From positions 4,608,202-4,672,201 of the forward strand of contig OY730171.1 in assembly GCA_963422465.1 (NCBI GenBank): a stretch of 64,000 nucleotides of DNA, read 5' to 3'. This document shows, piece after piece, positions 5,128 through 18,130 of this stretch; within the stretch, counting starts at the first letter, position 1; every line of letters starts with the position of its first letter. A model generated the notes under the pieces. It was not told the DNA's origin and made no database searches. It saw only the letters and a list, made by a program, of their open reading frames with translations. The position numbers and the translations under genes were made by a program. Origin of the DNA: Lichina pygmaea (Eukaryota > Ascomycota > Lichinomycetes > Lichinales > Lichinaceae).

Positions 5128-7370
5128 ATGAGTACCTCAGGAGCAACCAACCCCAACTTCCCAGATGGAAAGATTAGTGTTGCCAAGCCAGACCTGTTCT
5201 ACAGTGAAAGAAACAAGGTTGACGACTGGCTCATGCAACTCCAAGTCTACTTTCAATTCCAACCAGAGACAAAGCTGCCTAAGGAAAAGTGGCCCCTCTT
5301 CGCAACCACTTACATAAGAGGCAATGCTTATTGATGGATCAAGCCTTACATCAACAAATATCTCTCAGGAAACAGAGACCATGGTAGCACAACAGAATGG
5401 ATGATGAAATAGACATGATTCAAGGACAAGATCAAAAGGATCCTTGGACTATCTAACAAAGACAAAGTGGCTATACAAATGATCCAGTATATCAAACAAC
5501 AACACTCAGCCGCAGAGTACACTACGCAGTTCAAACAATACTCAGTACTGACTGACTGGGACAATGATGCCCTGATAGTCATGTACCAACGTGGACTCAA
5601 GGAAAACATGAAGAATGAAATCACCTTCAATGGACAAGTGGTCAACACACTGGATGAACTCATCACACAAGCAATCAACATTGATGACAAACTATTTGAG
5701 TGAGTGATAGAGAAACACTATGACAGAGGATACAGCCACTCCACATAGTATGTGAGCAACCACTACAAGCCACCTAACAAGGCACCACCACATGACCCAT
5801 ATGGCTATGCACCCATGGAACTGGATGCAGTCCACCACAAGGGAAGGTTCACAAAGAGAAGGAACAACAAAAAAAGGAAAGCACTGAAGTGCTATGCCTG
5901 TGGCAAGCTAGGCCACATAGTGAAAGACTGTTGTTCAAAGAACAAGGTGCACTGACAGCAACTTAATACACTTGACAGAGACTGGAATGTTATCAGGCCA
6001 GAGGACTCACCAGGAGAGGCTTAGCTATCCCTTGAACAATAGGACAACTACAATCAGACATTGGAAGTAGTCCACCAACTGGCAACATCAGGAGGCAAGG
6101 ACCTACCAGAACAGACAGGTCAGGACAAGGGACAGGAGCCCTTAACCACCTCTGATGGGGACTAAGACAAACCCACGTCTATCAAAGAAGAAATACCACA
6201 AGGAAGCTATACTTACAGCATGGACCCACAAAATCTACGGCACAGTGAACTACAGTGGAGGTTTTACATGAAGCACTACTGCACCTACCACAAACAACTA
6301 CAAAGGTATGGAGGACATTCACCCTACCACGCCACCTGCCACAAGCATTGGGTCAATTGTGAGAAGGATGCGTGTGAGATCTATCTTTGGGACAAACACC
6401 AACACACTGCATTCTCTGGGCACACACATGATTGGCACAAACACCTCATGTTCCTACAGCAAGGCAACAACCACAACTGCTACGTCAACAATTGGCAGTA
6501 CTGCCTCAAGCCTGGATGTGACAAGCATCAGCAAGACAAATTCATGAACAGATTCCTCAGGACTGATGGGAATAGCTGGACCTATTGCCCAGTCAGTGGA
6601 AAGACACTTCAATCAGGAAAAGACTGAACTCTCTTGTCAAGGGGTAACATTGGGAGCTCAACAACATGACCCCTAGCAACGCAAAGCACCTGCGATTGCC
6701 TGTGTCACTACACGCCAACACACCAGTACGGACATACACACTTGTTGACTCTGGAGCCAGTGGGAACTACATCTCAAGACAACTTTACAACACCCTCAGC
6801 ACTGGAAGGAGACGCAAGCAGTAGCTCTATCAGCTCGTGATAGCAAATAGACAGACAGAGCTAGTCTGCCATAAGACACAGCCAATGGAAATGGTTACCA
6901 GACACCATGCTGAAAGAATCCACCTTGATATTGTCAAGTTGGCCACTCAGAATATCTATTTGGGGATGCCTTGGCTAAAGAAGCACAACCCAGTTGTTAA
7001 CTGGAGGACAGGAGTACTCACGTTTAGGAACTGCACTAACAACACAGCTCAGACCTGTTACCAGCCGCAGAAAGTGTGGACAGATGAGGAAAGGAGTCCT
7101 CAGTGGAACCTCACTGACAGAAAGGACAACTCTCAAGAGAAGAGGTCCACCTTGACAGGCATACCCCGGAACCAGGTGGCCAAACAGTCAGAGATGAAGA
7201 GAGAGGAAGTTGTTAACCCTCTGGAGATCTCTGAAGAGTACTGACCTGGGTATGATAACCTCTTTCAGGAAGAGACAACAACAGCAGTGTTGCCTAAGCA
7301 CCAACCTTGGGATCATGAGATCAAGTTGCAACCAGGGACAGAGCCAGGATTTGGACCAATTTACCAGTTA
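5128..7370 (+). pseudogene. gag-protease segment of gypsy B (fossil)
   Basis: Starts 18 bp after the 5' LTR with a gag N-terminus that is nearly identical to that of D (17388 leftwards). A zinc knuckle CYACGKLGHxxKDC lies near 5896-5940, and an aspartic protease signature LVDSGASGNYIS near 6745-6775. The segment ends at the LINE1 insertion point just before RT. It is broken. Confidence 0.85.
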
Positions 7371-7381
7371 TCAGAGAAAGA

Positions 7382-7446
7382 GGCCTGCAACAACTCGAAC
7401 CTCCACGTGGTGCAGGCTGGGAACCTCGAGGCAGTTGATGGCGGAC
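7382..7446 (+). ncRNA. Candidate HDV-like self-cleaving ribozyme at LINE1 5' end
   Basis: The first nucleotides of the element read P1 GGCCTGC (7382-7388), then ACC (7399-7401), loop TCCACGT (7402-7408), GGT (7409-7411), then GCAGGCT (7412-7418) and GGGAAC (7419-7424). P1 pairs over 7 bp with a G-U wobble at the cleavage position, as in HDV. P3 is ACC/GGT, and the loop cytosines can pair with the following GG to make P1.1. GATGGCGG at 7437-7444 resembles the J4/2 strand that carries the catalytic C. P2 and P4 are not convincingly resolved by eye. HDV-like ribozymes at LINE 5' ends are known from R2 and trypanosome L1Tc. Function here is inferred. Confidence 0.6.
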
Positions 7447-8498
7447 GGCTTCCCAGACTGCTCGTAGTCGCTGCACCGAGAGCTAATCGAGTCACCGGTC
7501 AAGCTGCTGGTGTTGCGGAGTGACAGGCCACCGGAGGTGTCGCGCAGGCACCCTGGACACCCCTGTGAAACAGCTACAGCAGAACAGAGGACTGCGACCA
7601 AGCTTGGGAGATGAAAACCACCTGACAGACAACTACCGTGTACGCTACAGCCTGAAGCCAGCCCCACAGCTGGTGGATGTGAAGTCTAGGTGTCTGATAG
7701 GGCACCTCTGAAGTAGTCGAGAGGAGTTCTCATCATGTCACCCTCCTAGCAGAGTCTCCAGCTAACACGTGAGGATCTGCTAGGGGGGGAGTGGCCTTGA
7801 CACCGCGGTGTTGTTAATCAAACACAGACCACCTGTTAAAGAAGGAGAGTGGTCGTACGAGGAGATGTCACCGCTCCAGTGCCTAAGGGCTGTGTGATAG
7901 CCAAAGTGCTGGCTTGATGGTTTTGCCTAAGGCCTTGCCACAAAGTCTCTTCGTACAATCCATAATCTGGGGCCAGGGGACTGGGTTATCCAGTGGGCCA
8001 ACAGGTGCAACCGGGGCCCCACAGGTGACAGTGGACCAAGGAGAACTCCTCCCTACTTGGTTAGTGGGCTGGAAAGACAGCTCTGCAGGTGCTGGCACAG
8101 CCTGCAGAGTCTGTAAGGTCTGCGAGGCATGGTCGGCCTTTGTACAAGAGATCTGCGAAGGTAACACAAAACAGTTAACAACTGCGAGGTGTGGCATATA
8201 ATGGCAGTGACAGAGGTAGGGCCTGGGCCTACTACAAGACTGTCTATATGGCCCGAGAGGACGGATGCGTATGCCGGTTTGTACGGAGTGCAGGCTTAGG
8301 CTGCAAACAACAAGCTCAGGGAGCAAACTACAGTTGGAGCGTGGGCTCTGGGCTGGTGACCCAGCGCTCTGAAGCAGGATCCCAGGGGTGAGCATGTACG
8401 GCGGAGTGCAAGAGACCTCGGGACTGTGGGAAAGCGTGGTAGAGACCCTGTGGGGGGGTGCCAACTCTACACTATGTTCTGGTATAGTACGACTGTGG
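7447..8498 (+). other. LINE1 5' leader module
   Basis: This GC-rich block of about 1.1 kb is shared, at roughly 95 % identity by eye, with LINE2 (10262-11312). No conserved domain is visible in any frame. Both strands carry open frames of up to about 200 codons, but these look like products of composition. The block ends at the same base in both copies (the sequence GTACGACTGTGG), after which the copies differ. It is most likely the family's 5' UTR or promoter region. Confidence 0.6.
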
Positions 8499-9885
8499 CC
8501 TTCTGTGATAAGCGCTCTACCACTCTTGTCTTTGATGATTCTGAGTCTTGTTCAATTCCTATTCATTGTGGAGTTTCTCAAGGTTCTCCATTATCCCCTA
8601 TTCTTTTTCTATTCTACATTTCTGAATTGCATGAGACTGTGCATACTCCCTCTTCTGGTGTATCTGCTCTGGGGTTTGCAGATGATACAAATCTGCTTGC
8701 TTTTGGTCACTCCTTGAAAAGTAACCTTCTGAAGTTAAAGAACACACACTTCAAATGTCTATCATGGGCTGCAAGACATGGAATAGTCTTCTCTCCTGAG
8801 AAATATGAAATACTTCATTTTTCCAGAAGAAGATCAGACAATCTTCAGCTCAAGCTCAGACTGGGGAATGTGATTCTCAAACCAAAAGAAGAAGTGTGAG
8901 TACTTGGAGTGTACCTAGATGCAAAGCTCCACTGGCACAAACACCAGAGGATTATTCTTCAAAAAGCACAGAAAGCACTCTCTTCTCTTTCTAGAACTTC
9001 CTATTCTACTTGGGGCTTTCCAGTTCACACATCACGTCTGGTGTACACTGCTATACTGCGATCTCTACTGAGCTATGCAGTGGGGATCTGGTTTAACCCT
9101 CTAAGAAAATCCTCCAATATCTCTTCTCTTGTTTCATTTCAAAACAGATGCCTAAGACTTATTGGGGGTGCCTTCAAAGCCACTCCTTCTTTTCTATTAG
9201 AGAGTGAGCTTTTTCTTCTACCTCTAGACCTATACTTTAAATTTCGCACTGCCTGTTTTCTTTCTTCTATTCAAAACTCCCCTCTCAAATACTTTCTTGA
9301 CAGTATCTTTTCCACTATTTCCAGCTATGCCTCTCTCTTGAAGAAACCTTTAAAGGAATCCTCAACTATCTCTCCTAAGTGGAAATTCACTTGGTTAAGT
9401 CAAATAACTACTAACCAGGCTAGTTTGAAGAAAGAACTACAAAAGCTCTTTACTAAAGAGTGGGAAGACCAATAGGAAGAGAAGAAAAGAAGAAGCTATC
9501 CAGGCTGGCAGACTTTCTGTCAAAAGCCACACAAAAACAATCTGAAGCTCTACAAAGAGTTACAGAAAGCTGAGGCAAGTCTGCTACTGCAAATCAGGAC
9601 TGGAAGAATTGGTCTGGCAAGTTTTCTTTTCAGAGCTGGAGTTCCTGACTTCCCTACCCCACTATGTGTGTGTGGCCAAGCAGAAGAAACTGCAAAACAT
9701 ATCACCTCTTCATGCTCTCTTTATTCAAGACAAAGACAACAAGTCTCTTTTAATCCCCAAGACTTCACTACTATTATTTCAAACTCAGAGCTACTACAGA
9801 AGTTCTTGTACTGGTTTATGTCTTTGGAAAAACTAAACCAGTTTAATCTAGCTTTCAAACTCCACTATTCCCAATCTAATACCTA
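8499..9885 (+). pseudogene. LINE1 ORF2 C-terminal half (reverse transcriptase)
   Basis: The translation aligns along its length with LINE3 ORF2 from the RT palm onward. It includes CGVSQGSPLSPILF, GFADDTNLLAF (catalytic Asp pair present), LHFSRRRSDNLQL, the conserved LRSLLSYAVGIWFNP block and the terminal Cys/His motif (CVCGQAEETAKHITSSC). An in-frame TGA at 8897-8899 replaces an Arg codon position of LINE3 (probably CGA to TGA), and further stops and shifts follow near 9473 and beyond. The upstream half of the ORF is missing. It is not functional by itself. Confidence 0.85.
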
Positions 9886-10195
9886 GATTCTTTTCTCTTA
9901 CCAGAAACTTCAAGATTTCTTTTGTTACATTCCCTAGTCACATGTTGTGGTCTGTACTGTACTGTCCTATCCGAGTATAGAATTAGGGCGAGAGGTGGAA
10001 GGCGGGTTGGTTCTCGCAGGAGAGGAGTGTCAAGGAGTGTGAAGGGGTTTGGTGGAACATGGTGGTGGTGACACCTGATCAACAGCTTTGTACAAAAGGA
10101 TTGTATTGAAGTAGATCTAGTTGTCTGGATCACAACATGAGTTGAAGATGATTGTTCCATAGGGGAACTATCGCCAGACTATATAGTGCCCAGTT

Positions 10196-10260
10196 GGCCT
10201 GCAACAACTCGAACCTCCACGTGGTGCAGGCTGGGAACCTCGGGGCAGTCGATGGCGGGC
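10196..10260 (+). ncRNA. Candidate HDV-like ribozyme at LINE2 5' end
   Basis: Identical to the LINE1 candidate through P1, P3, the loop and GGGAAC. It differs downstream at a few transitions (for example AGTTGATGG versus AGTCGATGG), one of which would turn a G-U into a G-C pair in a possible short P4. As in LINE1, the motif begins exactly at the junction with the target duplication. Confidence 0.58.
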
Positions 10261-11312
10261 GGCTTCCCAGGCTGCTCGTAGTTGCTGCACTGAGAGCTAA
10301 TCAAGTCACCAGTCGAGCTGCTGGTGTTGCGGAGCGACAGGCCACTGGAGGTGTCGCGCAGGCACCCTGGACACCCCCGTGAAACAGCTACAGCAGAACA
10401 GAGGACTGCGACCAAGCTTGGGAGATGAAAACCACCCGACAGACAACTACCGTGTACGCTACAGCCCGAAGCCAGCCCCACAGCTGGTGGATGTGAAGTC
10501 TAGGCGTCTGATAGGGCACCTCTGGAGTAGTCGAGAGGAGTTCTTGTCATGTCACCCTCCTAGCAGAGTCTCCAGCTAACGTGTGAGGATCTGCTAGGGG
10601 GGGAGTGGCCTTGGCACCACAGTATTGTTAATTGAACACGGACCACCTGTTAAAGAAGGAGAGTGGTCGTACGAGGAGATGTCGCCACTCCAGTGCCTAA
10701 GGGCTGTGTGATAGCCAAAGTGCTGGCTTGATGGTTTTGCCTAAGGCCTTGCCACGAAGTCTCTTCGTACAATCCACAATCTGGGGCCAGGGGACTGGGT
10801 TATCCAGTGGGCCAACAGGTGCAACCAGGGCCCCACAGGCGACAGCGGACCAAGGAGAACTTCTCCCTACTTGGTTAGTGGGCTGGAAAGGTGGCCCTGC
10901 AGGTGCTGGCACAGTCTGCAGGGTCTGTAAGGCCTGCGAGGCATGGTCGGCCTTCGTACGAGAGATCTGCGAAGGTAACGCGAAACAGTTAACAACTGCG
11001 AGGTGTGGCATATAATGGCAGTGACAGAGGTAGGGCCTGGGCCTACTACAAGACTGTCTATATGGCCCGAGAGGACGGACGTGCATGCCGGTTCGTACAG
11101 AGTGCAGGCTTAGACTGCAAACAACAAGCTCAGGGAGCAAACTACAGTTGGAGCGTGGGCTCTGGGCTGGTGACCAAGCGCTCTGAAGCAGGATCCCAGG
11201 GGTGAGCAGGTACGGCAGAGTGCAAGAGACCTCGGGACTGTGGGAAAGCGTGGTAGAGACTCTGTGGGGGGGTGCCAACTCTACACTATGTTCTGGCATA
11301 GTACGACTGTGG

Positions 11313-11548
11313 TCCCTACCCCACTATGTGTGTGTGGCCAAGCAGAAGAAACTGCAAAACATATCACCTCTTCATGCTCTCTTTATTCAAGACAAAGACA
11401 ACAAGTCTCTTTTAATCCCCAAGACTTCACCACTATTATTTCAAACCCAGAGCTACTACAGAAGTTCTTGTACTGGTTTATGTCTTTGAAAAGACTAAAC
11501 CAGTTTAATCTAGCTTTCAAACTCCACTATTCCCAATCCAATACCTAG
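11313..11548 (+). pseudogene. LINE2 remnant of ORF2 C-terminus
   Basis: Encodes only the last roughly 80 residues of ORF2: the Cys/His motif CVCGQAEETAKH...SC and the tail ending near KLHYSQSNT, matching LINE1 at 9654-9886. No catalytic part is present. The 3' UTR with the conserved GATCTGCATGGCT element follows. Confidence 0.8.
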
Positions 11549-12025
11549 ATTCTCTTCTCTTACCAGAAACTTCAAGATTCCTTTTGTTACATTCCCTAGT
11601 CACACCCTGCCTTCAGTTTTTATCTCTTCAAAAGTTTTCTGAAGGAGTTCACTATTAGCTAGAAGATCTGCATGGCTGTAAAGCTACTACCAGTGTAAGA
11701 ATCAAATAAATAAAATAAATAAAAATAGTGCCCAGTTCGTGAGCACAGTGAGCTCTGCTCACTTTGCTCACTCGGTAAGATCGGTGAGCTCTGCTCACTT
11801 TGCTCACAGTTTATGCACACTGCGGTGAGCTGGGTGAGCTCTGCTCACTTTGCTCACTTTTCATGCACGCTGCGGCAAGCTGGGTGAGCTCTGCTCACTT
11901 TGCTCACTTGCTTGTGCATATGCATGCTGTGGCAAGCACCCCCTGGTTTGTCTCACCGGTCACGTGACTGGTTCCCGTGCCACACTGTCTGGTACTTCCG
12001 TCCAGTATCCTGTCTGCTGCTTTCT

Positions 12026-12045
12026 GTGAGTATATAAAGACTGTG
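12026..12045 (+). promoter_or_regulatory. Antisense TATA box in gypsy D U3
   Basis: GAGTATATAAAGACTGTG lies 20-35 bp inside the LTR edge and reads towards the accessory ORF at 12108. Gypsy B has CTATAAATGAG at the same distance from its LTR edge in the same relative orientation, although the rest of the two U3 regions is unrelated. The same box occurs in the other D LTR near 17952. Confidence 0.5.
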
Positions 12046-12107
12046 TTCCTCCTGGGTCGTAACACTATCCTCCTCTCCATCTTTCATCATCTTGATGAAA
12101 TCTGGTC

Positions 12108-12512
12108 ATGCCTCCAAAGTCATGTGCGACTGTTAGCCGAACTCAGCTTGCTGCTCAAATCTGCAATCAGGGTTTTGTTTCACGTACACCCTGCGACTTT
12201 TGTGTTCTCTGTGGTCATCTGTGCTTCCAGATGCTGGGAGAAGACAATAAGTTGAAATGTGCTGTGTGCACTCAGCATGGAAGGTCTTGTGTCTCTGTGT
12301 CCTGGGAATCTCTGAACATGTCCCGGGACAACCTCTGTGAGGATGTGGCCACTGACAAGGCAACACGTGATGCACTCTTCAAACAACTTGCCACAGTCCA
12401 GGCTTGTCTGTCTCGGAAGCGAAAGGTGTTGGAGGGCGCTGAGGTCTGTGCGAGGCAGAAGCTTCAGTGCTTGGTGAAAGAGATGGAGTCAGATGGCGAG
12501 GATTTGACTTGA
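12108..12512 (+). CDS. Accessory ORF of gypsy D, opposite strand to pol: Zn2Cys6-like plus coiled coil
   Basis: This 134-codon ORF lies between the D chromodomain end and the D 3' LTR, reading opposite to gag-pol. Six cysteines are spaced CX2CX6CX11CX2CX6C (within residues about 29-60), which fits the consensus of fungal Zn(II)2Cys6 clusters. The basic residues usual between the second and third Cys are missing. A heptad-rich helix (residues about 65-125) follows and may dimerise. A TATATAAA box in the adjoining LTR lies about 75 bp upstream of the ATG and faces this ORF. Gypsy B carries a broken homologue in the same place and orientation. Function is unknown; a regulatory role is inference. 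In D it looks whole. Confidence 0.6.
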   Translation: MPPKSCATVSRTQLAAQICNQGFVSRTPCDFCVLCGHLCFQMLGEDNKLKCAVCTQHGRSCVSVSWESLNMSRDNLCEDVATDKATRDALFKQLATVQACLSRKRKVLEGAEVCARQKLQCLVKEMESDGEDLT

Positions 12513-15110
12513 TCAGTCATTGACACATCCCTCCTGCAGGCTGAGCTGTTCAGTCCTGCTCCTGCCAAAACTGTCGCAGAAGAAGCTGGCAGTTTGCGAG
12601 GTTCTTGAGTGGTTCCCAGGTATTTTCCAAGTCTGGGTATCCTTTCCACTTGACAAGGTATTGCTGACTTTTTCTAGCCAGGATCTGTTCAACTTCAAAC
12701 TGTTGTTCTTCTTCAGGTTGATAATGGAATATTTCCTGCAAGGGTGTGCTCTGGTCGGCTGGTTCAATCATCAATATATGAAAGTTTGGATGGACTCTGG
12801 CATCCCTTGGTAGTCGTATCTTGATGTTGACTGGTCCTGTTTTTTCTTTGACTGAAAATGGTCTGACCTTGATGTTGTCAAGTTTCTTTGTCTTTGGTTT
12901 CTTTGTTTTCCAATTTCTTGTGAGGAGGTAGACTTTATCCCCCTTCTTTAGCTGAGGTGCCATTTTCAATTTCTTGTCTATTTGACATTACATTCTTTCT
13001 GAGGTCTCTTGAAGATAGTGCCTCATCATTGTGTGTGTTTGTCGTAGGAGCTTGTCATGTTGGAGTGCTTTCTCCGTGTTTGGTGAAGCTCTGCTTGGCA
13101 TCCCGATGTTCGCATGTTGTCCAAAATTGGCAAAAAATAGTGATTCCTTTGTTGAGTCTGATCTGTGCTGGTTGATTGCCAGCTGTGCCACCGGTAATAA
13201 CTGTACCCAATTGCTGTGGGTCTGGTTGATGTAATGCTGTAAGTAAGTCTCCAGGACTTGGTTTGCTCACTCTGTCTGGCTGTCAGTTCGTGGGTGATAG
13301 GCTGTAGACATTTTGGGTTTTGTTCCCATGGCTGCACTGATTGTCTTCCAGTAGTTGGATGTGAAGAGTTTATCTCTGTCTGTAATGATCATGATCAGAA
13401 CTCTGTGGTCTCTGACCAATCTGTCCAGTAAGAGGTGTCCCAACTGTTCTGCTGTGTGGGTCTCCTTGAATAGTACTGCTATTAGATATTTTGTGAATCT
13501 GTCCACTATCACCATAATCAAGTTGTAGGTGATTCCTGTGACTGGGTCTTTGGACTTGGGTAGCTTTGTGATGAAGTCCATTGACATGTCTTCCCATAGG
13601 CCTCTCAGTATTGTGTTCGGGTGTCCTTCTCCATATGGCTTATGTCTTCCATGTTTGTTTTTCTGGTATAGTAGACACTTGCTGATGTAGTTTGTGACAT
13701 GTTGTCAGAGGTTAATGATATTGTTCCCTGCCTGTTGGATAAGGTCTGTGGTCTTGGAGATTCCTGGGTGACTATGTGCTGGATTATCATGGTAGTTCCT
13801 TATTAGTTCTTCAGTGTCTTCTGCTGTGAGCTTGTTGATCTGTGGTTGAGGCACCAGGTTTCCTTGCTAGTCCTGCTGTAAGATTGTTCCTTGGTGTTCA
13901 TCATCTTCCATGTGGTTTTTTTGTCAGCTTAGTGCATCTGCTCTCCTATTGTCTTGTCCAGGGGTATACAAGATCTTGAACTTGTGTTGCCCTAGGAGTT
14001 CAGCCTATCTGACTTGCTGTCTGTTCAGCTTCTTGGTTGTCGTGAATGCTGTCAGATTCTTGTGGTCTGTGAGAACAGTGAGTTCAGAACTGCTTTCCAC
14101 GTACACTCTCCAGTGTTCAAGTGTGTTGACAACTGCCAGTAGCTCTTTGTTGTGGATATCATAGTTTTGTTCTGCTTGTGTTATTTTTCATGAGTAGTAG
14201 GCAACTGGGTGTCACTTGCTGTCTGCCTGTTGGCATAGACATGCTCCCACTGCCTGATCTGAAGTGTCTGTCTTGATTCATGTCAGTTGGCCTGTCTTGA
14301 AGTTGAGGAGAACTGGTTCCTTGGCGCAAGTGTCCTTGAGCTGTTGGAATACTTTTTGTTGTCTCTCCGTCCACCGGTACTCCATGTCCTTCTTTGTGAG
14401 TTCTGTCAGTGGTGTTGCCATCTGTGAATAGTTCTTTATGAACTGTCAGTTGAAGTTGGCAAATCCTAGGAAGGCTTGTACTTCCTTAACTGATGTCAGT
14501 GTTGGCCATTGCTGAATCACTTTGATTTTCTCAGGGTCAATCTTGATCTCTTCAATTCCTATGATGTATCTGAGGAATTCAACTTCCAGTTTGTTGAACT
14601 TGTATTTCTTCGGGTTGAGCTTAAGCCCTGCCTGTTGTAGGCATCGTAGAACATCCTTCACGTGTTTGGTATGTTCCTGTTGCGTGTTCAAGTAGACAAG
14701 AATGTCATCCAGGTAGGTGATAGCTGTTTGGTCCAGGTGTGCTCTGATGATGTTATTGATCAATGCTTGACATGTTGCTGGTGTGTTCGTGAGTCCAAAT
14801 AGCATCACCAGATACTTGTAGTGTCTGTATCAGGTTCTGAAGGCTGTCTTCCATTCTTCTCCTTCTTTCATGCATATCAGGTTGTATGCTCCTTTCAAGT
14901 CCAGCTTGGTAAAGATTGTAGCTTGGCTGATCCTGTCTTGCAATTTGTTTGTATTTGGCAACAGATATCAGTTCTTGATAGTAATGTCATTGAGTTTCCT
15001 GTAATCCACACAAAGTCAAAGACTTCCATCTTTCTTTGGTGCAAATAGTATCAGGTATCCTGCTGGCGATTGAGATTCTTGAATGAAACTCTTTTTCAGG
15101 TTTTCCTCCA
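12513..15110 (-). pseudogene. pol segment of gypsy D: RT, RNase H, integrase, chromodomain (fossil)
   Basis: Minus-strand translation shows RT with TYLDDILVYL (YxDD-type box, about 14720-14690), RNase H with LLAVVNTLEHWRVYV-like sequence, an integrase zinc region and core (FITKLPKSKD, DRFTKYLIAV and DRDKLFTSNYW blocks, about 13590-13350) and a chromodomain with [17 protein letters not shown] near 12660-12610. The chromodomain places D and B among the chromoviruses. The segment is broken. Confidence 0.85.
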
Positions 15111-15147
15111 GGTACTCATGAAGTACTTAGAGCTCTTTCTCTGATAA

Positions 15148-17388
15148 CTAGTAAATTGGTCCAAATCCTGGCTCTGTCCCTGGTTGCAACTTGATCTCAT
15201 GATCCCAAGGTTGGTGCTTAGGCAACACTGCTGTTGTTGTCTCTTTCTGAAAGAGGTTATCATACTCAGGCCAGTACTCTTCAGAGATCTCCAGAGGGTT
15301 AACAACTTCCTCTCTCTTCATCTCTGACTGTTTGGCCACCTGGTTCTGGGGTGTGCCTGTCAAGGCAGACCTCTTCTCTTGAGAGTTGTCCTTTCTGTCA
15401 GTGAGGTTCCACTGAGGACTTCTTCCCTCATCTGTCCATGTCTTCTGCGGCTGGTAACAGGTCCGAGCTGTGTTGTTAGTGCAGTTCCTAAACATGAGTA
15501 CTCCTGTCTTCCAGTTAACAACTGGGTTGTGCTTCTTTAGCCAAGGCATCCTCAAATAGATATCCTGAGTGGCCAACTCAACAATATTAAGGTGGATCCT
15601 TTCAGCATAGTGTCCGGTAACTATTTCCATTGGCTGCGTCTCATGGCAGACTAGCTCTGTCTGTCTATTTGCCATCGCAAGCTGATAGGGCTGCTGCTTG
15701 CGTCTCCTTCCAGTGCCGAGGGTATTGTAAAGTTGTCTTGAGATGTAGTTTCCGCTGGCTCCAGAGTCAACAAGTGCGTATGTCTGTACTGGCGTGTTGG
15801 CGTGTAGTGACACAGGCAATCGCAGGTGCTTTGCGTTGCTAAGGGGTCATGTTGTTGAGCTCCCGATGTCGCCCCTTGACAAGGGAGTTCAGTCTTTTCC
15901 TGATTGAAGTGTCTTTCCACTGACTGGGCAATAGGTCCAGCCATTCCTATCAGTTCTGAGGAATCTGTTCATGAATTTGTCTTGCTGATGCTTGTCACAT
16001 CCAGGCTTGAGGCAGTACTGCCAATTGTTGATGTAGGAGTTGTGGTTGTTGCCTTGCTGTAGGAACATGAGGTCTTCGTGCCAATCATGTGTGTGCCCAG
16101 GGAATGTGGTGTGTTGGTGTTTGTCCCAAAGATAGATCTCACACGTATCCTTCTCGCAATTGACTCAATGCTTGTGGCAGGTGGCGTGGTAGGGTGAATG
16201 TCCTCCGTACCTTTGTAGTTGTTCGTGGTAGGTGCAGTAGTACTTTGTGTAAAACCTCCACTGTAGTTTGCCGTGCTGTAGATTTCGTGGGTCCATGCTG
16301 TAAGCATAGCTTCCTTGTGGTATTTCTTCTTTGATAGACACGGGTTTGTCTCAGTCCCCATCAGAGGTGGTTAAGGGCTCCTGTCCCTTGTCCTGACCTG
16401 TCTGTTCTGGTAGGTCCTTGCCTCCTGATGTTACCAGTTGGTGGGCTGCTTCCAATGTCTGATTGTAGTTGTCCTATTGTTCAAGGGATAGCTGAGCCTC
16501 TCCTGGTGGGTCCTCTGGCTTGATGACATTCCAGTCTCTGTCAAGTGTATTAAGTTGCTGTCAGTGCACCTTGTTCTTTGAACAACAGTCTTTCGCCATG
16601 TGGCCTAGCTTGCCACAGGCATAGCACTTCAGTGCTTTCCTCTTTTTGTTGTTCCTTCCCTTCGTGAACCTTCCCTTGTGGTGGACTGCATCCAGTTCCA
16701 TGGGTGCATAGCCATATGGGTCATGTGGCGGTGCCTTGTTAGGTGGCTTGTAGTGGTTGCTCACATGCCATGCGGGGTGGCTGTATCCTCTGTCGTGGTG
16801 TTTCTCTATCACTCACTCGAATAGTTTGTCATCAATGTTGATTGCTTGTGTGATGAGTTCATCCAGTGTGTCAACCGCTCATCCGTCAAAGGTGATTTCA
16901 TCCTTCATGTTTTCCTTGAGTCCATGTCAGTACATGACCATCAGGGTGTTGTTGTCCCAGTCAGTCAGTACTGAGTATTGTTTGAACTGCGTGGTGTACT
17001 CTGCGGCTGAGTGTTGTTGTTTGATGTGCTGGATTATTTGTATAGCCACTTTGTCTTTGTTAGATAGTCCAAGGATCCTTTTGATCTTGTCCTTAAATTA
17101 CATCTATTTTGTCATCCATTCTGTTGTGCTGTCGTGGTCTCTGTTTCCTGAGAGATGTTTGTTGATGTAGGGCTTGATCCATCAATAAGTATTACCTCTC
17201 ATGTAAGTGGTTGCAAAGAGGGGCCACTTGTTCTTAGGCAGCTTCATCTCTGGTTGGAATTGAAAGTAGACTTGGAGTTGCATGAGCCAGTCGTCAACCT
17301 TGTTTCTTTCACTGTAGAACAGGTCTGGCTTGGCGACGCTAATCTTTCCATCTGGGAAGTTGGGGTTGGTTGCTCCTGAGGTACTCAT
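15148..17388 (-). pseudogene. gag-protease segment of gypsy D (fossil)
   Basis: Gag begins at 17388, 18 bp from the 5' LTR, with sequence nearly identical to B. A zinc knuckle CYACGKLGHMAKDC lies near 16640-16575, and an aspartic protease LVDSGASGNYISRQL near 15790-15745. The protease part is the longest uninterrupted stretch. The segment as a whole is broken. Confidence 0.85.
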
Positions 17389-17406
17389 CCTTGAGGGTCT
17401 TCAAAG

Positions 17407-17986
17407 TGTTGCAGTCTGTACTGTACTGTCCTATCCGAGTATAGGATTAGGGCAAGAGGTGGAAGGCAGGTTGGTTCTTGCAGGAGAGGAGTGTCAAGGA
17501 GTGCGAAGGGGTTTGGTAGAACATGGTGGTGGTGACACCTGATCAACAGCTTCGTACAAAAGGATTGTATTAAAGTAGATCTAGTTGTCTGGATCACAAC
17601 ATGAGTTGAAGACGATTGTTCCATAGAGAAACTATCGCCAGACTATATAGTGCCCAGTTCATGAGCACAGTGAGCTCTGCTCACTTTGCTCACTTGGTGA
17701 GATCGGTGAGCTCTGCTCACTTTGCTCACAGTGTATGCACACTGCGGCGAGCTGGGTGAGCTCTGCTCACTTTGCTCACTTTTCATACACACTGTGGTGA
17801 GCTGGGTGAGCTCTGCTCACTTTGCTCACTTGCTTGTGCATATGCATGCTGCGGCAAGCACCCCCTGGTTTGTCTCGCCAGTCACGTGACTGGTTCCCGT
17901 GCCACACTGTCTGGTACTTCCGTCCAGTATCCTGTCTGCTGCTTTCTGTGAGTATATAAAGACTGTGTTCCTCCTGGGTCATAACA
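17407..17986 (-). repeat. 5' LTR of gypsy D
   Basis: 580 bp, TGTT...AACA, partner of the interrupted LTR at 9943-12064. It carries the four GTGAGCTCTGCTCAC-type units at about 17669-17832 and the TATATAAA box facing outward near 17952. The target duplication TCACA follows at 17987-17991. Confidence 0.9.
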
Positions 17987-18130
17987 TCACACTCTGCCTT
18001 CAGTTTTTATCTCTTCAAAAGTTTTCTGAAGGAGTTCACTATTAGCTAGAAGATCTGCATGGCTGTAAAGCTACTACCAGTGTAAGCATCAAATAAATAA
18101 AAATAAAATAAATAAAAATCAGAGAAAGAG

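Follow-up and report, generated by a model that had tools for sequence, protein, structure and literature searches.

Why do two LINE-containing insertions at one locus of Lichina pygmaea begin, at the same base, with a sequence that resembles an HDV-like ribozyme, and to which RNA would that ribozyme belong? The locus lies in a window of 64,000 nt (the whole stretch of DNA analysed; contig OY730171.1, positions 4,608,202 to 4,672,201). Combining the two window copies with the other copies in the genome, we find it likely that an HDV-like self-cleaving ribozyme forms the first 112 nt of a 1.1-kb leader RNA, which was joined to LINEs by template jumping.

Two insertions with the same front end

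The two insertions and the element that separates their parts are laid out as follows.

7370..7381, + strand: 5' target duplication of copy 1, ATCAGAGAAAGA (second copy at 18118-18129)
7382..7493, + strand: HDV-like ribozyme fold of copy 1, 112 nt
7382..8498, + strand: whole non-coding leader of copy 1, 1117 nt, subfamily A
8499..9942, + strand: 5'-truncated LINE of copy 1 (partial RT), first part, ending with the nested element's 5-bp target duplication
9943-17986: nested LTR-like element inside copy 1, with TG...CA ends and 5-bp duplication TCACA
10183..10195, + strand: 5' target duplication of copy 2, ATAGTGCCCAGTT
10196..10307, + strand: HDV-like ribozyme fold of copy 2, with one P2 mismatch and the first P2 pair lost
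10196..11312, + strand: whole leader of copy 2, 1117 nt
11313..11724, + strand: last part of the copy 2 LINE, with A-rich tail
11725..11737, + strand: 3' target duplication of copy 2, ATAGTGCCCAGTT
17992..18117, + strand: 3' end and A-rich tail of the copy 1 LINE, displaced by the nested element
18118..18129, + strand: 3' target duplication of copy 1, ATCAGAGAAAGA

Since copy 2 lies inside the nested element, which itself lies inside copy 1, the order of insertion was copy 1, nested element, copy 2. In both copies the target duplication abuts G1 of the ribozyme, and the HDV-like fold stands exactly at the 5' end of the insertion, as the sequence-only reading had claimed. Within the nested element, four tandem units of about 50 nt with the core GTGAGCTCTGCTCACTTTGCTCAC occupy 11737-11922.

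The ribozyme fold and its Rfam matches

The architecture of copy 1 was assigned from Rfam alignments, from pairing by eye and from an alignment of 40 distinct copies.

7382..7388, + strand: P1 5' strand GGCCTGC; predicted cleavage just before 7382
7392..7398, + strand: P2 5' strand; first base A in copy 1, so that the first P2 pair is lost
7399..7411, + strand: P3 ACC/GGT enclosing L3 TCCACGT
7412..7421, + strand: P1 3' strand GCAGGCT (7412-7418) and P1.1 GG
7425..7480, + strand: P4, a long interrupted hairpin that includes GATGGCGG
7481..7486, + strand: J4/2 AGCTAA, adjoining the P2 3' strand on its 5' side; the C at 7483 is predicted to be catalytic
7487..7493, + strand: P2 3' strand TCGAGTC

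The strands of P1 (7382-7388/7412-7418) are separated by 23 nt and its first pair, at the cut site, is G-U; GGGAAC follows at 7419-7424, and GATGGCGG 12 nt later at 7437-7444. In order and pairing, P1, P2, P3, P1.1 and P4 make up the nested double pseudoknot required of an HDV-like ribozyme. The letters, pairings and spacings on which the sequence-only reading relied are present at 7382-7446 and repeated at 10196, and the P1, P3, TCC loop and P1.1 GG that it named are borne out by the Rfam and 40-copy alignments. Its catalytic strand has to be moved, as GATGGCGG lies inside P4 and the predicted strand is AGCTAA at 7481-7486. P2 and P4, which it had left unresolved, can be placed at 7392-7398/7487-7493 and 7425-7480, respectively. 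The P2 of copy 1 starts with A in place of G, and copy 2 shows the same loss of the pair.

When 221 bases of copy 1 were scanned against 4227 Rfam families, the three best of four matches were HDV families starting at 7380 or 7382: RF00094 (30.0 bits, E 0.008), RF01787 (21.3 bits, E 0.032) and RF02682 (17.0 bits, E 0.46). The fourth was a weak microRNA family. The covariance-model search thus favours HDV models over all others for copy 1, but all three scores fall below the respective gathering scores, and a scan of the whole window at gathering scores returned no match. Other genomic copies score higher against RF00094, at 38.7 bits (E 1.3e-4) for L004 and 43.9 bits (E 1.3e-5) for L031, the latter being the best score found; no match reaches the gathering score of 50. 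The curated RF00094 model is narrow, and we therefore class the feature as HDV-like and not as RF00094. Searched through the genome, this model gave 85 matches among 86 scored candidates (1614 at first look; best E 6e-4), and all 85 are 5' ends of one leader family, as checked by coordinate or reading for 72 and by retrieving the sequence for 13. Searched through the genome, RF01788 found 1 weak match (12.9 bits) and RF01787 found 37, likewise weak (best 20.2 bits); several of the RF01787 matches fall at leader 5' ends.

Conservation and covariation across copies

From the 40 distinct copies, RNAalifold recovered P1, P3 and P4 unprompted, and P2, which was assigned by hand, is paired in 91.8% of its cells. 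In total, 96.9% of 1480 cells pair, compared with 29-39% when the partners are slid by 1-3 columns. The pairing is weakest at two positions of P2: pair 15-109 is broken in 15 of the 40 distinct rows and pair 11-113 in 6. Both the covariation score and the percentage paired exceed those of all 500 shuffles, a result to be read with the kinship of the copies in mind, as related sequences may beat shuffles without any structure. Four pairs show double changes; 147 of the 500 shuffles had as many or more, and 306 of the 500 had as many pair types or more. Subfamilies A and B of the leader are separated by two of the double changes, one in P2 and one in P4, each from G-C to A-U, and the two others occur in single copies. 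The covariation by which the sequence-only reading would have its fold checked is present in part: P2 pairs across copies and carries a double change between subfamilies, but independent events are few and the independent evidence that they offer is small.

The letters of the core are kept far more strictly. G1.U37, the purine-pyrimidine pair at the cut site, is retained in 81 of 82 rows (81 places) and is G-U in 39 of the 40 distinct rows, and the TCC of L3, the GGG after P1 and the CTAAT with the C of J4/2 are each found in 82 of 82 rows. These kept letters agree with HDV-class cores. The HDV-like fold is very likely real, and the predicted ribozyme is probably active.

A 1.1-kb leader found throughout the genome

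The fold heads a non-coding leader whose 5' core pattern, with at most 2 mismatches, occurs at 241 places (113 + 128) in the 32.5-Mb genome of 8 contigs. A reversed control pattern gave 0 matches in the same 32.5 Mb, and the core pattern is absent from the viral contigs and the bacterial and archaeal genome contigs searched. As copies were found through the ribozyme core, 5'-truncated leaders are under-counted in this figure, as they are among the places with flanks considered below. In subfamily A the ribozyme spans 112 nt and the leader mostly 1117 nt, and in B 111 nt and most often 1124 nt; among the copies read, the two are about 82% alike on average. Of the 81 places with usable flanks, 80 begin with GG, and the flanks are mutually unrelated. 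The base before G1 at these 81 places is T in 35, C in 23, A in 16 and G in 7, so that G is rarest at the predicted cut.

The 3' end was also used as an entry point. Contigs 1-3 hold 40 exact A-type 3' ends, and for 28 of these a listed 5' end lies 1114-1118 nt away. Eleven of the remaining 12 were retrieved: six extend to leader position 1 or 2, four leaders start at 102, 242, 596 and 1071, and L092 is interrupted.

No reading frame is common to A and B. A 204-codon minus-strand frame is present in most A copies (e.g., window 10697-11299); it is not kept in B, and a protein-coding leader was rejected on this ground. For the two copies tried, leader folding lies about 4 and about 3 s.d. below the mean of 12 shuffles. 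A Pol III gene was considered and set aside, as the two leaders tried contain nothing within two mismatches of a B box; one-mismatch matches to the A box are so numerous as to be uninformative. Of 730 differences between the A copies and L004, 352 are G>A and 241 C>T, an excess as expected of repeat-induced or methylation-linked mutation.

Junctions between leader and LINEs

In all 77 physical junction loci found, the leader ends in ...ACTGTGG, the very sequence (two mismatches allowed) by which these loci were located; a small number of copies that have the 5' end of the leader stop short of it (e.g., L027 and L041). The 77 loci represent 71 distinct junctions, 6 of them common to two loci each. 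Among the 74 junctions with distinct downstream sequence, 71 run into a 5'-truncated LINE, and several LINE families are involved: 56 downstream sequences match the DNA of L087 (65-100% identity) and 15 match LINE proteins (weakest E 8e-4). The other three do neither, L015 leading into a B-like leader and L090 and L091 offering fewer than 100 bases to test. In L015 (1501-2617 on), a full A leader is followed by a B-like leader that sets in at about position 46, which looks as if the enzyme had made its jump while copying leader RNA. Both leader subfamilies are also partnered by a GC-rich LINE type, which lies downstream at L007, L016, L021, L022, L023, L042, L050, L052, L056, L059 and L060.

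L087 is a full-length LINE with a target duplication identified by eye (ATGCATATGCACA). It has a frame of 494 codons without Pfam match and an open frame of 1083 codons with Exo_endo_phos_2 and RVT_1. Open frames of 1083 codons hold 17 of the 150 scored RT matches in the genome (889 candidates), which implies that recently active LINEs exist. Relatives of the ~50-nt GTGAGCTCTGCTCACTTTGCTCAC repeat flank L087.

The combinations of leader and LINE are informative in both directions. Leaders L037, L039 and L044 are identical over 1124 nt and yet have different LINE junctions, so that the simplest account of the leader is a distinct RNA attached through template jumps. Conversely, 4 of the 6 shared junctions allowed the leaders on both sides to be compared, and in none of these is the partner the nearest neighbour; it ranks 14th of 34, 32nd of 34, 20th of 27 and 12th of 34, where the last pair consists of two decayed copies and its rank says little. 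The same leader with different LINEs and the same LINE point with different leaders fit RNA-to-RNA jumps and not one spreading chimera. The structure of the loci is that of template-jump chimeras, with a full-length non-coding RNA, a fixed 3' end, and a LINE truncated at variable points; in the two window copies, target duplications were read as well. Pyrimidines predominate at the first two LINE bases retained, with 71 of 74 at +1 (C 54, T 17, A 2, G 1) and 68 of 74 at +2 (C 54, T 14, A 4, G 2). Trans-splicing of the leader was rejected, for among the loci where L087 shows the lost LINE bases an AG precedes the junction only in L032. The copies read give good support to the view that the ribozyme stands at the head of a leader acquired by template jumping, and not of the LINE.

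Proposed mechanism

The junctions suggest the following sequence of events. A LINE protein would start target-primed reverse transcription on LINE RNA; copying, as the junctions show, stops part-way, usually where the last copied LINE bases are two pyrimidines, mostly CC. Judging from the fixed junction, the enzyme would then jump to the 3' end of the leader RNA (...ACUGUGG) and copy it to its 5' end, the product being inserted with a target duplication, as is seen in both window copies. The 5'-truncated leaders support this order of copying, LINE first and then leader. If R2 and L1Tc are a guide, the most likely function of the ribozyme is to cleave, immediately upstream of G1, the read-through transcripts that arise from integrated copies; leader RNAs would then start at the same base wherever transcription begins. 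Release of the leader RNA is our best reading of the role of the ribozyme.

As to what the leader is, one reading, to which we give somewhat less than even odds, is a mobile element of its own that spreads by template jumping only; the WEIRD RNA of rice blast would then be of the same kind. The ribozyme would free such a leader at G1 from any read-through transcript, and its 3' end would catch LINE reverse transcriptases in mid-synthesis; the leader would need neither an enzyme of its own nor a LINE-like 3' tail.

Alternative explanations

The leader might instead be a host non-coding RNA of an ordinary kind that LINE jumps picked up passively, with a ribozyme that serves the host or is incidental to mobility. 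This view is held of WEIRD in the portion of that report available to us (PMC2104539), and both the folding of the two leaders tried and the want of a frame common to A and B would suit it. We nevertheless consider it rather unlikely. No solo gene was met among the 77 junction loci (two short ones are unclassified), and the two ~82%-alike lineages each have identical or near-identical young copies, which implies that at least two leader sources were active. HDV-like ribozymes at a 5' end are otherwise typical of retroelements, as far as the accessible text of PMC4035085 and PMC3774820 goes.

It is improbable that the fold is an HDV look-alike without catalytic activity. Every Rfam score is below gathering and covariation events are few, as such a look-alike would have it. 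Against this, the fold sits precisely at the end of the unit, the core letters (G1.U37 and those of L3, GGG and CTAA) are kept as described above, P2 carries a paired change between subfamilies, and RF00094 found nothing but leader 5' ends (85/85).

Much less probable still is the reading from which this work started, that the ribozyme belongs to the LINE and trims its transcript as in R2 or L1Tc. In its favour, the ribozyme is located at the very front of insertions that contain a LINE and are flanked by target duplications. However, L087, the single LINE read at full length, opens with unrelated sequence; it lacks the leader, and its 5' region gives no HDV match. This contradicts a LINE-owned ribozyme for the L087 family. 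Moreover, the leader forms 71 distinct junctions, with LINEs of several families, and identical leaders precede different LINEs. The feature that had been taken for a part of the LINE heads a separate 1.1-kb non-coding leader.

Least credible is a unit-length, self-cleaving circular RNA replicon that is sometimes copied by LINE enzymes: a self-cleaving motif at the 5' end of a unit of near-fixed length, with no common reading frame and no solo copy met, would fit it, but we rejected it since there is no head-to-tail dimer (among 14 matches to a dimer pattern, the three with ACTGT-GGCC adjoining are ordinary flanks), each of the two copies tried has a branched fold of 23 hairpins, the minus strand has no ribozyme-family match, and the minus-strand frame found in most A copies is not maintained in B.

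Comparison with known systems

The closest parallel is MINE of rice blast, in which a full-length 1113-nt non-coding RNA, WEIRD, is fused to a 5'-truncated LINE (PMC2104539). According to the available text of that paper, 33 chimeras at 28 sites were described, WEIRD had no solo copy and no similarity elsewhere, and its function was called unknown and read as that of a housekeeping RNA. MINE shares with the present case an RNA of about 1.1 kb joined to 5'-truncated LINEs at many points, target duplications, the lack of a solo copy, and pyrimidine-rich jump sites, some of them used twice; the pyrimidine-start junctions found here resemble the GCC-type jump sites of rice blast (PMC2104539, same text). 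It differs in that this text makes no mention of a ribozyme, and in that the Lichina leader is found at about 241 places, in two lineages and with several LINE families. Three 20-nt MINE/WEIRD primers (from the accessible part of PMC3978060) matched the leader within the range of shuffles, the comparison being confined to these primers.

HDV variants have been reported in fungi, with 230 examples in 26 species and self-cleavage shown for two (PMC5640933). Their role was left open, and the main text, in which 'transpos' does not occur, does not tie them to transposons. With them our copies share an HDV-class fold in a fungal genome and the extra nucleotide between P2 and P3, the latter according to the RF00094 alignment. 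A C-G pair at the cut site and a loop E within P4 are typical of the variants, whereas the present copies have G-U and no loop E in P4 was seen in them by eye; compared by the description in that main text, they fall outside the variant class (PMC5640933). The sequence-only reading knew of no description in a Tad-type fungal LINE. In the open-licence literature searched, we found no fungal LINE and no MINE-type chimera described as carrying an HDV-like ribozyme, but HDV-like ribozymes in fungi as such were already published in PMC5640933.

In R2 and R2/R1 SIDE elements, an HDV-like ribozyme is likewise found at the exact 5' end; in hybrid SIDEs it is joined to the 3' end of another LINE, and template jumps of R2 to U12 or tRNA are known (PMC3774820, PMC3414825, in their available portions). 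A stable 5' HDV-like fold aids R2 insertion, as stated in the accessible part of PMC11331408. The difference is that the R2 ribozyme, as those texts present it, is the LINE's own, whereas in the Lichina copies it stands in front of a 1.1-kb RNA that is foreign to the LINE and joined to it at many points. The Pr77 ribozyme of trypanosomatid L1Tc/SIDER is similarly HDV-like, common to LINE-related elements and able to free RNA from co-transcripts, but in the text available to us it is part of the 5' end of the LINE clade itself (PMC4035085). Mammalian U6-L1 chimeras, as PMC2104539 describes them (see also PMC4476161), likewise consist of a full-length small RNA and a 5'-truncated LINE joined through a template jump.

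One difference from those chimeras lies in the joined RNA. To our knowledge, U6 is a known host RNA that has no self-cleaving ribozyme, unlike the leader with its putative one.

Significance

A fungal non-coding RNA with a putative ribozyme, repeatedly fused to pieces of LINEs, suggests how the exact front end of such chimeras may originate. It links the HDV-like ribozymes described in fungi (PMC5640933) with the non-coding RNA that fronts LINE chimeras (PMC2104539), so far as the available text of both reports allows. If our interpretation is correct, an RNA that has neither a reverse transcriptase nor a LINE-like tail can reach about 241 places in a genome by way of template jumping.
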